Virus record (IMG/VR): IMGVR_UViG_3300001848_000290
Coordinates: 1 to 30,380 of that record
DNA: 30,380 bases
Reading direction: 5' to 3' (one strand)
Origin: a virus
Shown one piece after another: positions 10,087 through 13,554 of this stretch. The notes below the pieces were generated by a model. The model did no database searches. It saw nothing but the letters and a program-made list of their open reading frames with translations, and was not told where the DNA came from. The position numbers were made by a program, and so were the translations under genes. Numbering within the stretch: the first letter of the stretch is position 1; every line of letters begins with the position of its first letter.

Positions 10087-10968
10087 TTAAAGTGAAAAAG
10101 TTACAGCGTAAGATAAAGCTGCTGCTTTTAACTGAGAGGTATTGAGACTATTAGTACCACTACCTAAAGCGAATAATGACCAATATGCTGGGCTCACATC
10201 TGGTTGTTTTGCACCTGCAGTCGCATATGCATATTCTTGAATATTTATGTAAGCAGATGAATTATAATAAACGATTTCGCCTAAACGATAATCGGTAACA
10301 GCACTCCAGTTTCCTACCCACTTAATACCAGTTTGGAACTGAGTCCATTTTGTAATATCAGCAGTAGGAATAACTCCAGTATTTGCTACAATACAAACAA
10401 AAAGATACCCACCATATTGAACGACATCACCTTCTTTATAAGAAGAAGAACCACTCCAAGTTCCAGCAGTGTTGAGACCTTTAATTAAAAGTCCCCAAGC
10501 AGTATTACTTGTGTTTGGAGCAACGTTTGTATTAATTGTTTTTGCGGTGTAAGTATAACCAGCGTAGCTTACAATATCTCCTGGTTGATACTCTGTTGAT
10601 GAACTCCAACTATCTTCCCATTTCAATCCTTGTAAATAAATTGTAAATTTGGAAGCATCGAAAGTTGAAGATGATGTGTGTTGTGTGGTACAGTAATACA
10701 CTGTATTTCCATAAGTAACTAAATCGTTCAACTTATAAAAAGTTGATGCTGTCCATGATCCTTTTACTTCGTATCCAGGAACGTGAACGTTCCAGTTTGC
10801 TGTATCGGTGGTATACCAAGCCGATTCCGATGCTGCAGAAGTGTGGTTAGCTATGCAAATATAAGTATTACCACCAAACTTTACGATATCATCAATAACG
10901 TAAGCAGTGGTAGCCGACCAAGCACCCCTCCAGTTAAATTTTAGTCTTCCTAAGTTAAAATCTGCCAT
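10087..10968 (-). CDS. Virion protein with five tandem CBM5/12-like (chitin-binding type) modules
   Basis: This 293-residue protein is almost entirely five tandem units of about 50 residues, at roughly 10-60, 70-116, 117-166, 168-217 and 218-270. Each follows the carbohydrate-binding module family 5/12 pattern: W(S/T)xxxxY, then (G/D)D-x-V-x-(Y/F)-(G/A)-G-x-x-(Y/F), then a Pro/Thr-rich stretch and Trp. Examples are GTWSGSSSYKEGDVVQYGG and DSWSSSTEYQPGDIVSYAG. There is no catalytic domain, signal peptide or membrane helix. The N-terminus MADFNLGRLKFNWRG may be the attachment region. In phage tails such modules usually bind surface polysaccharide, and I infer that role here. AGGA lies 7 bases before the ATG. 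It is 12 bases downstream of the 126-residue gene and 40 bases upstream of the 2613-residue gene. Confidence 0.82.
   Translation of the reverse strand: MADFNLGRLKFNWRGAWSATTAYVIDDIVKFGGNTYICIANHTSAASESAWYTTDTANWNVHVPGYEVKGSWTASTFYKLNDLVTYGNTVYYCTTQHTSSSTFDASKFTIYLQGLKWEDSWSSSTEYQPGDIVSYAGYTYTAKTINTNVAPNTSNTAWGLLIKGLNTAGTWSGSSSYKEGDVVQYGGYLFVCIVANTGVIPTADITKWTQFQTGIKWVGNWSAVTDYRLGEIVYYNSSAYINIQEYAYATAGAKQPDVSPAYWSLFALGSGTNSLNTSQLKAAALSYAVTFSL
10158..10938 (-). repeat. Five tandem ~50-residue CBM5/12-like repeats
   Basis: The repeat start markers in order are GAWSATTAY, GSWTASTFY, DSWSSSTEY, GTWSGSSSY and GNWSAVTDY, each followed about 5-6 residues later by D(I/L)V, DVV or EIV and then an aromatic-Gly pair and Y-x-C or Y-x-A/N. 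Units are diverged at DNA level, so they are old or fast-evolving rather than recently duplicated. Confidence 0.8.
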
Positions 10969-10980
10969 TGTTTTTTCCTA

Positions 10981-11361
10981 TTATTTGGGACCTGTGTAAG
11001 AATAATTTCCGTTTAGTCTTGCGTACATGTTTCCGTTACTGATGAAATATCTCACTTTCCTAGTATCATATCTATACTGTTGATATTTATCATTCGCATA
11101 ATTTAAATCACCGACTCCATTTAAATTTTGTTTTGCTCTTCCAGATGGAATTGCTGCAACATAATCATCAGTTATATTATTAAATTGACCTGCTGCTTGA
11201 GATGTTTTGACATTAATAACATCACTAGTTGCTGAAGCATCTAATAATGTATAAACCAACATACCATCAGCAGTTCTTGATAATGCATGAAATTCTCCAA
11301 TTACTGTTCCAGTTGAAGAACCAGAACCTCCTCCTATTAAGTTGCTTAAGTTGATAGCCAT
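10981..11361 (-). CDS. Small putative virion structural protein (126 aa)
   Basis: A 126-residue protein of unknown function. The N-terminus has a Gly/Ser linker (LIGGGSGSSTG at about 8-18), followed by a beta-rich segment (VIGEFHALSRTADGMLVYTL). The C-terminus has an aromatic-rich block with YDTRKVRYFISNGNMYARLN, close to a pattern I know from small conserved structural proteins of cyanomyoviruses. There is no transmembrane helix. The ATG abuts the TAA of the 730-residue gene (TAAATG), and a strong GGAGG lies 9 bases upstream inside the last codons of that gene, so the start is well supported and translation is probably coupled. Its place in a run of adhesin-like genes suggests a tail-fibre accessory or tip protein; that is inference. 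Confidence 0.72.
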   Translation of the reverse strand: MAINLSNLIGGGSGSSTGTVIGEFHALSRTADGMLVYTLLDASATSDVINVKTSQAAGQFNNITDDYVAAIPSGRAKQNLNGVGDLNYANDKYQQYRYDTRKVRYFISNGNMYARLNGNYSYTGPK

Positions 11362-13554
11362 TTAGAATACCCTCCAATAGTTTCCTGTCCAAATTATGCT
11401 TGTTGATACACCTGTGTAATCTAATATTAATGTATTGTCTGTAGAACCCGTATTAACTAAAAAGTTTTTGGGTGATGCACTAAGAGTAACATTATATGTT
11501 GACCATGTATTCGAACCATCTGCAAAAGCAACCACGTCTCCTACACTTGGATTTGGTGGCATGTAACAAGTAAATGCACCATAATTACTGTCAAGTATAT
11601 AATTTTTATTTGATGATAATGTTGTAGAAGGAACAACCCAAGTAGTGTATGTTAAATATGGAGATAAAACAGAATTGTTATTTAATTGACCAAATACAAA
11701 TAAAGTTTCCGTTGATGCTACTAATGCAAATTTTGTTTCAATTGAATTGATAGAAACACCAAGAGATAAAGCTGGAGCAGCAATTAAAGCCCAATCAACA
11801 AAATCAGATGACCGATAAGATGCACCAGAAGAAGTTGTGACCACAAAAGCTTGAGAAACTGAAGAATAATATAAACTATTAATACCTACGTTTGTTATAT
11901 TATATGGATTACTTATAGCTGTTGTCCAAGTAACTGCATCTGTAGAAGTCAAAACATCAACATTACCATTAGATGTATTTGAAACTAAAGCTAAGAATTT
12001 AGAATTTCCGTAAGAAACAAATACTTTTTTCGAACCGCCAATATTATATCTAGAAGTCCACGTTGCACCATCAACCGAGGTTGATATTTCTCCAGAACTT
12101 CCGCCTGCTAGATAAACTCCATTTCCATAAGCAAATGAATTGATAGCAGAACTTATATTACTTACAGTTGAAGTAAAGGTCGTGGAACCTAGTGAATAAG
12201 CAATGTTTCCAAAAGAAGAACCCAACAAATATCTTCCATTAGCAAAAATACTAGCAACAATATCGGCGCCATTTGAAGTAAATGGTCCATTAGTAGTATT
12301 CCACGTAACAGCATCACTTGAGGTGGAAATAACATTGTTGCTTGCACCAGCAACATAGAATGGTGTAGACCAAGAAATGGTATTGAAATTATTTGACGTT
12401 CCTGTTGTAGCAGTAGTCCAAGAACTTAAATTGGTTGATGTTAAAATTTTTCCACCATTTGAAACAATTACGTGCTTGGCATTTCCATAAACATAATCAT
12501 TAACAGTTGTCTGTGGAGATAATCCTGTCGTTACATCGGTATAATTGTTGAATTTTACGGGGATTGAGGAAAGATAATTCCATCCAACCAATGTTCCTGC
12601 CGAAGCATCTGTAATAATTTGGTTCCAGGAAGAGGTATCAGAATTGTATATTTTTGGAACATTTGTGAATGTATTCCAAATAAATTGACCATCAACTGGA
12701 GAAGCAGGGTCTGAAGTTACAGTTAAATTAAGTTTGTCTGGAGTTACTGCAGAAGTAGCAATTTTTGCTGATGTAATATTAGAATCTGCAATTTTTGCTG
12801 TGGTGATTGCACTATTAGCAATATCTACTGTAGCAATAGTGCCATCAACAATTTTTGCTGAAGTGATAGAACTATCAGCAATATCTCCAGTAACAATTGC
12901 ACCATCTGCGATTTTTGCTGAGGTAATTGCACCATCAGCAATATCTCCAGTAACAATTGTACCATCTGCGATTTTTGCTGAGGTAATTGCACCATCAGCA
13001 ATTTTTCCAGTAGTTACTGCTGTATCAGCAATCTTTCCTGTAGTAACATTTAAATCTCTAATCTTAGCAGTAGTAACTGCTTCGGAACCAGGAGTTCCAT
13101 CTAATTTTGAAGTTGTTACTGCGCCATCTGCAACATCAGATGCAATTACTGTTCCAGGAGCAATTTTATCACTTGTAATTGCATTATCTGCAATCTTTGC
13201 AGTAGTAACTGCTTGATCCTTAATAGTTGCTGTAGTTACTGTATCTGTTCCTGGTTTATTGAGAGAAACTCTATCACCGAGGATTCCAAAAAATACAGCG
13301 TTACTTGCAGGAGCAGTGGTAAAAGTAATTATATTACTTTGAATAAAGAAATCAACTTTTGGATTGAGAGTTGATCCGTTTAAAACAGCATTTAATAGTA
13401 ATTCCGAATCTGGATAAACAGGATTTGTTTCGATGGTCAAATAAAACTGGGTTGCAGTTCCATTAAAACCATATCCAGAATCAGATACTCTCTGTAAAGG
13501 AGTATCTAATTTTCTATTATCTGTTCTTGTTGGACTTATGCCTAAGTATGCCAT
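11362..13554 (-). CDS. Tail-fibre-like adhesin with decapeptide repeats, Asp-box propeller and C-terminal tip domain (730 aa)
   Basis: This is a modular fibre protein. Residues 1-100 (MAYLGISPTRTDNRKLDTPL onward) form an N-terminal beta domain of the kind seen at phage fibre bases. Residues about 103-278 are some 16 decapeptide repeats with consensus A-(I/V)-T-(S/T)-(A/G)-K-I-A-D-G, likely a fibrous beta shaft. Residues about 368-595 hold six repeats resembling sialidase/BNR Asp-box blades: ILTSTNLSSW, VISTSSDAVTW, IAYSLGSTTF, EISTSVDGATW, VDVLTSTDAVTW and SYRSSDFVDW. This suggests a beta-propeller, but no sialidase catalytic residues can be assigned. Residues about 645-730 (NYILDSNYGAFTCYMP to the final NYWRVF) match a C-terminal module common in marine phage fibres. 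It lies between the 110- and 126-residue genes in a late cassette. Host receptor binding is inferred. Confidence 0.82.
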   Translation of the reverse strand: MAYLGISPTRTDNRKLDTPLQRVSDSGYGFNGTATQFYLTIETNPVYPDSELLLNAVLNGSTLNPKVDFFIQSNIITFTTAPASNAVFFGILGDRVSLNKPGTDTVTTATIKDQAVTTAKIADNAITSDKIAPGTVIASDVADGAVTTSKLDGTPGSEAVTTAKIRDLNVTTGKIADTAVTTGKIADGAITSAKIADGTIVTGDIADGAITSAKIADGAIVTGDIADSSITSAKIVDGTIATVDIANSAITTAKIADSNITSAKIATSAVTPDKLNLTVTSDPASPVDGQFIWNTFTNVPKIYNSDTSSWNQIITDASAGTLVGWNYLSSIPVKFNNYTDVTTGLSPQTTVNDYVYGNAKHVIVSNGGKILTSTNLSSWTTATTGTSNNFNTISWSTPFYVAGASNNVISTSSDAVTWNTTNGPFTSNGADIVASIFANGRYLLGSSFGNIAYSLGSTTFTSTVSNISSAINSFAYGNGVYLAGGSSGEISTSVDGATWTSRYNIGGSKKVFVSYGNSKFLALVSNTSNGNVDVLTSTDAVTWTTAISNPYNITNVGINSLYYSSVSQAFVVTTSSGASYRSSDFVDWALIAAPALSLGVSINSIETKFALVASTETLFVFGQLNNNSVLSPYLTYTTWVVPSTTLSSNKNYILDSNYGAFTCYMPPNPSVGDVVAFADGSNTWSTYNVTLSASPKNFLVNTGSTDNTLILDYTGVSTSIIWTGNYWRVF
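11371..11375 (-). promoter_or_regulatory. Strong Shine-Dalgarno for the 126-residue gene
   Basis: GGAGG on the minus strand is formed by the Trp-Arg codons (TGG AGG) near the end of the 730-residue gene and lies 9 bases before the ATG at 11361. This decides the start and shows that the downstream gene's ribosome site is embedded in upstream coding sequence. Confidence 0.75.
12719..13245 (-). repeat. Decapeptide shaft repeat of the 730-residue fibre
   Basis: About 16 units follow the pattern A-V/I-T-T/S-A-K-I-A-D-G, for example AITSAKIADG, TIVTGDIADG, NVTTGKIADT and AVTTGKIADG. One interruption (DGTPGSE) occurs after the fourth full unit. In the middle the units alternate SAKIADG with VTGDIADG, giving a 20-residue superperiod. 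Confidence 0.88.
12875..13002 (-). repeat. 60-bp near-identical tandem DNA repeat
   Basis: Within the decapeptide region the sequence at 12875-12942 recurs at 12935-13002 with a 60-base period and a single difference (C at 12900, T at 12960). Sixty bases encode two decapeptides, so duplication keeps the frame. The near-identity implies a recent duplication, unlike the more diverged flanking units. Confidence 0.88.

Follow-up and report, generated by a model that had tools for sequence, protein, structure and literature searches.

Decapeptide arrays are already known from phage fibres and are annotated as tail fibres in databases. A consensus decapeptide probe retrieves 299 phage records, including P-SSP2/P-SSP3, S-TIM5, and phages of Gordonia, Mycobacterium and Lactobacillus. 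The fibre described here, encoded in a 30,380-base window (the whole stretch of DNA that was analysed), shares its decapeptide shaft with fibres of the families PHROG 28766 and PHROG 892 (E 8e-33 and 3e-30), while no phage record covers 80% of the shaft combined with its N-terminal domain, propeller and C-terminal domain. In-frame duplication inside a tail fibre gene reportedly has a precedent in T4, where Tetart et al. are said to have found in 1996 that duplications of a small domain in the fibre tip, gp37, expanded host range. Those duplications reportedly sit in the adhesin and alter host range, whereas the one considered below lies in a shaft whose unit number is the same in relatives. 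Fibre domains can also be spaced by collagen-type repeats, which follow the pattern Gly-X-Y. Passages of one report place collagen-like repeats between the domains of Streptococcus thermophilus phage antireceptors (PMC5601072). As those passages present them, these antireceptors resemble the window fibre in having a repetitive spacer between fibre domains, and differ in that the repeats are of the collagen type instead of decapeptides. A search of the open-access literature found no paper on the unit number of decapeptide shafts, though one could still be in print, and the contrast drawn below between unit turnover and a stable unit number is possibly new.

A described protein of related layout is SBM3_00193 of Synechococcus phage S-BM3 (Kyanoviridae). 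Like the window protein it has a related N-terminal domain, a decapeptide shaft and a PHROG 9648 C-terminal domain, and its locus carries the same three downstream genes. In contrast to the 17 units of the window protein it has 6 and, at 314 aa, it is too short for a propeller. SBM3_00193 (OQ319121, L035:4001-4945) is annotated as a ‘putative hoc protein’, T4-GC_294. The Hoc capsid decoration protein has Ig-like domains, and Pfam gives no support for a Hoc identity of either protein: the window protein matches no Pfam family at E ≤1, and the S-BM3 protein has one unrelated, sub-threshold Pfam match (E 0.23) and matches tail fibre PHROGs instead. Judged by PHROGs and synteny, SBM3_00193 is a short relative of the window fibre, and its hoc label may be wrong.

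The window is a whole virus record yet apparently a fragment. Its fibre gene, P0001 (11362-13554), is an open reading frame of 730 aa on the minus strand, as are the parts of the gene and the two neighbours located below. Tail fibre PHROG families match the protein in a profile search (best E 8e-33), the shaft region reaching E 8.1e-33 with PHROG 28766 and E 2.9e-30 with PHROG 892, and the fibre identity proposed in a preliminary description of this DNA stands. On sequence grounds, P0001 is a tail-fibre-type protein of a T4-like phage; none of the phage records covers 80% of it.

P0001 sits in a tail and structural module, with a CBM5/12 tail fibre, a head-tail adaptor (Ad2) and a head closure protein (Hc2/gp14) as neighbours. 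Downstream follow a gene for a 126-aa protein (10981-11361) and one for a 293-aa fibre protein (10087-10968), both conserved neighbours in the distinct relatives, and then genes up to the head-tail adaptor and neck (gp14) homologues. The 293-aa protein contains five CBM5/12 (carbohydrate-binding) stretches (PF02839) and also matches PHROG 9851, tail fiber. Among the best 15 matches listed, the gp14 homologue at 405-1310 is 45-47% identical to cyanophage neck proteins. Parts of one paper place the host recognition cluster of T4-like cyano- and pelagimyophages between VrlC and gp14 (PMC7029224). P0001 lies among fibre genes, towards gp14 within the structural region, as a member of that cluster would. 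A 160-aa open frame antisense to the array (12734-13216, plus) was discounted, as it probably just mirrors the repeat composition of the opposite strand.

In outline, the protein begins with a conserved N-terminal domain, continues with the 17-decapeptide rod and a predicted seven-bladed beta-propeller, and ends in a small C-terminal domain. The N-terminal domain (aa 1-104, 13243-13554) has many invariant residues in the alignment of relatives, and its aa 1-98 are 47.5% identical to SBM3_00193; it probably attaches the fibre to the baseplate or to a neighbouring fibre protein. Splitting the shaft into units (aa 105-278, 12721-13242) gives 17 decapeptides of approximate sequence A-V/I-T-T/S-x-K-I-A-D-G. 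The array of ‘about 16’ units described earlier is therefore real, and the count is 17. Unit 5 carries a 4-residue insertion, AVTTSKLDGTPGSE (13081-13122), and is likewise 14 residues long in the 10 counted 17-unit relatives; unit 17 is divergent.

Beyond the shaft, aa ~336-640 (11635-12549) are predicted to form a seven-bladed beta-propeller. In the AlphaFold model the blocks of aa 341-640 have a pLDDT of 66-94, and the strands group, by our own count, into seven blades. The best structural alignment is with 2z2n (VIA-align Z 26.6, rmsd 2.8 over 280 residues), a seven-bladed designer protein, 7big, reaches Z 25.5, and Z is at least 8 in 950 of 967 aligned chains. Model and alignments thus agree on a predicted seven-bladed beta-propeller for aa 336-640, a shared fold that in itself indicates no function; the domain is a candidate for receptor contact. 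The C-terminal domain (aa 641-730 and stop codon, 11362-11634) matches PHROG 9648, ‘tail protein’ (E 1e-13), and weakly the tailspike 7rfv (E 9e-4). By analogy with fibre families, the oligomeric state, attachment and receptor binding of P0001 would follow theirs.

The N-terminal domain and shaft (aa 1-336) have a pLDDT below 50 in the AlphaFold monomer built from 10 sequences, the shaft block falling to 30-41, and the 314-aa S-BM3-type relative yields a low-confidence model throughout. The shaft matches weakly the designed pentapeptide-repeat ‘beta1’ chains 5dn0 and 4yc5 (E 0.0017 and 0.013), and like pentapeptide-repeat proteins it has a hydrophobic residue at about every fifth position. Membership in that family (PF00805 and kin) was rejected, as the window protein matches no Pfam family at E ≤1. 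A solved structure, PDB 9eg4 chain H (‘orf16’, E 0.007), contains about three such decapeptides, a short array compared with the 17 of the window, and may show the shaft fold; a search of the open-access literature by PDB code found no paper naming 9EG4.

The centre of the shaft contains a nearly perfect tandem repeat. Positions 12875-12942 and 12935-13002 agree over 68 bases with a single mismatch (12900 C / 12960 T), as the preliminary description had reported. At offsets 6-399 by far the longest near-exact self-match of the window is the one at offset 60, which extends over 69 bases with no more than one mismatch; the next best is 23 bases. In unit register, copy 1 (units 9+10, AITSAKIADGTIVTGDIADG, 12931-12990) and copy 2 (units 11+12, AITSAKIADGAIVTGDIADS, 12871-12930) are identical at 58/60 bases, and both differences change an amino acid, with none silent. 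A diverged dyad follows (units 13+14, 12811-12870), which agrees with copy 2 at 46/60 bases (14 differences), so that units 9-14 form three dyads, each of a K-type and a D-type unit. Tandem Repeats Finder reports for the array a period of 60, 3.8 copies and an 85% match.

Codon convergence on the same protein was ruled out as the cause of the repeat by synonymous recoding: none of 5,000 recodings of the array protein reaches the observed 59/60 at offset 60, the maximum being 56. The probability of identical codons at all 18 common residues by independent choice is 1.6e-6. A DNA copying event must therefore have taken place: the central 60-bp dyad was copied as DNA, with reading frame and decapeptide register both intact. 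Two decapeptides per 60-bp DNA unit do, as had been proposed, preserve the frame, and they preserve the register too.

A degenerate pattern scan for comparable arrays found at least 119 stretches, 80 of them among the matches listed. Together with the earlier loci and the window these gave 135 array-bearing frames in 128 sources under a loose motif, and in 110 of the frames the main array has at least 60 aa. Among these 110 arrays (mostly from IMG/VR, window included, near-identical contigs kept in), that of the window is the sole one with at least 58/60 at offset 60. Internal repeats of at least 54/60 at an offset below 400 occur in 24 of the 110, and 22 of these 24 arrays match best at a multiple of 30, in part because of the 30-base period itself. 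An exact 23-mer of the window had no match in IMG/VR, where very near records may be absent, and a DNA search of the phage collection, from which very near records may likewise be absent, returned 10 records with at most 8% coverage. As no close relative was found, duplication, conversion and import of a block are alike possible for the window's repeat.

Eleven full-length relatives of P0001 were found in IMG/VR by scans, and a wider alignment gave the same 11. Their proteins are 53-56% identical to the window fibre. Over 10,235 bases L003 has exactly the sequence of L001, and L032 matches L029 at 99.97%, which leaves 9 distinct relatives; gene order around the fibre gene is kept in all nine. 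The shaft has 17 units in the window and in 11/11 full-length relatives (10 counted; the L003 shaft is that of L001). The arrays of the window, L033 and L034 have an equal length of 176 aa, and the other seven distinct relatives also have 17 units each, two of these units having 7 extra residues. In L034 an insertion of ~110 aa separates the shaft, still of 17 units, from the propeller; because of this insertion behind the shaft, its fibre match covers only aa 1-332.

More distant fibres have other unit numbers. A search with the neighbouring CBM gene gave 77 loci, many of which end near contig ends. An N-terminal match to the P0001 or S-BM3 fibre (E ≤1e-4) is present in 7 of the 77, namely six known contigs and L216, a more distant relative with 18 units. 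Fibres of the S-BM3 type have 6 units in 8/8 cases, 6 of them distinct (L041 is nearly the same as L037, and L039 as L038). Unit number thus shifts between clades and is constant within the two clades examined. The preliminary description had pictured a growing shaft of variable length and asked whether homologues share one unit number. They do, at 17 in 11/11, in relatives that at 53-56% identity are not close, and a growing or length-variable shaft is not supported: the centre has been rewritten and the number is unchanged. Since the relatives are this far apart, unit gains and losses could have cancelled.

The rewriting is concentrated in one block. Against the 9 distinct relatives, per-unit identity averages 0.68-0.94 in units 1-8, falls to 0.21-0.50 in units 9-16 (12751-12990) and is 0.64 in unit 17. 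In seven relatives a 111-bp repeat occupies the centre of the array, and in L034 a run of similar units does. Between L002 and L031, copy A of the 111-bp repeat is 59/60 identical and copy B 50/60, and the two copies within L002 are 53/60 identical. Compared with L031, the two L002 copies look partly homogenised, a pattern such as conversion without length change would give. A run-length test for conversion on all polymorphic columns gave p 0.003 for L002 and p 0.008 for the seven phages together. On third codon positions the test was not significant for L002 (p 0.13), and in the other six phages it was not significant by either version.

Across other decapeptide arrays, length is also mostly stable. 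Nearly full-length pairs number 102 at ≥80% identity and 61 at ≥85%, and array length differs in 3 of the 61: by 30 bp in L010/L012 (89.8% identity) and by 366 bp in two L150 pairs. A comparison with anchored flanks covered 247 non-independent pairs. Array length is equal in 26/26 pairs with flank identity ≥95% and in 175/179 with ≥80%, where all 4 exceptions involve contig L150; it differs in 5/67 pairs at 70-80% and in the single pair below 70%. L010/L012 is absent from this comparison because its filter left the pair out, and the window was compared at the protein level because no window pair passed the DNA filter. Reduced to 25 disjoint pairs, the set shows 2 length changes over a summed divergence of 2.88. 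That in L080/L133 consists of a number of small gaps, and the array there is poorly conserved. The L150 array differs from those of L118, L158, L079, L141 and L174 by 366 bp (122 aa), with flanks ~92% identical to the nearest. In these other families conservation of the array is no lower than that of its flanks (0.840 vs 0.825 at 80-85%), and fast turnover is therefore not general.

Isolate genomes agree. In 45 gene pairs from 17 genomes, 86-100% identical and with arrays of 6 to 28 units, none (0/45) has a gap in the array. The genomes are 3 S-TIM, 7 Dexdertvirus (3 identical here), 5 Sourvirus with two arrays each, and P-SSP2/P-SSP3, four groups from the best 60 of the 299 records, with 143 Mycobacterium records and L190-L192 left aside; their arrays were not picked for near-perfect internal repeats like that of the window. 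Assemblies are consensus sequences, in which minority length variants are hidden.

On balance we lean towards an ordinary phage fibre in which duplication, loss or conversion in register renews the central units and the unit number changes rarely. Units would misalign at multiples of 30 bp, or slip, and duplication, loss and/or gene conversion would rewrite the middle of the shaft; selection on shaft length would purge most variants with another unit number. The outcome would be a shaft of nearly constant length whose units turn over and in which a new number is only rarely fixed, as in L216 (18 units) and the S-BM3 type (6 units). A shaft that keeps the propeller a fixed way out from the tail would account for a preferred length. 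In another reading, units 9-16 and their dyads came together from another phage by homologous recombination within similar unit codons, and the 60-bp duplication was inherited from the donor. Identity does drop from unit 8 to unit 9 and partly recovers at unit 17, and many unrelated phages contain similar decapeptides. Such mosaic exchange is nevertheless somewhat unlikely, as exchange between arrays of unequal size would not itself keep 17 units and no donor was found, the sole direct search being the one exact 23-mer with no match in IMG/VR.

Slippage or recombination at the 60-bp repeat might instead keep fibre length variable within the window's own population. The repeat, the strongest at offset 60 among the 110 arrays, would be a plausible substrate, and relatives elsewhere do differ, by 30 bp in L010/L012 and by 366 bp in L150. 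Differences in fibre-gene length are also on record for brucellaphages, for which parts of one study describe indels that lengthen the fibre gene between related phages and present the authors' speculation on fibre length (PMC4422536). Length variation of this kind is still unlikely given the 17 units in 11/11 full-length relatives, which lie outside the window's own population, and the equal lengths in 26/26 pairs with flanks ≥95% and in 45/45 isolate pairs, which sample other populations. That an assembler created or collapsed the near-perfect 60-bp copy is highly improbable. Short tandem repeats are in general a weak spot of metagenome assembly, but the array reads through in an open frame, two codons distinguish the copies in unit register, and other contigs have the same total of 17 units. 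Many short reads exceed 128 bases, the length of the repeated stretch (12875-13002).

Tandem repeats in fibre genes are easily taken for devices of length variation. In this fibre the repeat is real and the unit number in relatives is stable, a caution that a near-perfect in-frame tandem repeat alone does not imply length polymorphism. A unit number that is stable despite the repeat makes shaft length a testable selected trait. More tentatively, and with some doubt, decapeptide shafts may be rulers, in which selection would fix the unit number (17 here, 6 in the S-BM3 type) and recombination between units, always in register, would rewrite the middle of the rod and so diversify its surface at constant length. 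Because the shaft block is modelled at a pLDDT of only 30-41, this ruler function is one that we infer. If true, it would tie the length of the fibre in T4-like phages to the geometry of their tail or baseplate. Seventeen was ruled out as a general unit number, since the median count varies between 6 and 69 units among 42 array clusters.

A difference in copy number of another repeat served as a positive control. In L105 and L143, fibre frames contain a 55-aa repeat (LPESTSIGNVSNLEIGYLNGVTSS..., ~aa 327-382 of the frames), and the two align at 100.0% except for one in-frame difference of 165 bp in this repeat. Although the repeat may have collapsed in assembly, the pair has a stronger claim to real length variation than the window array.
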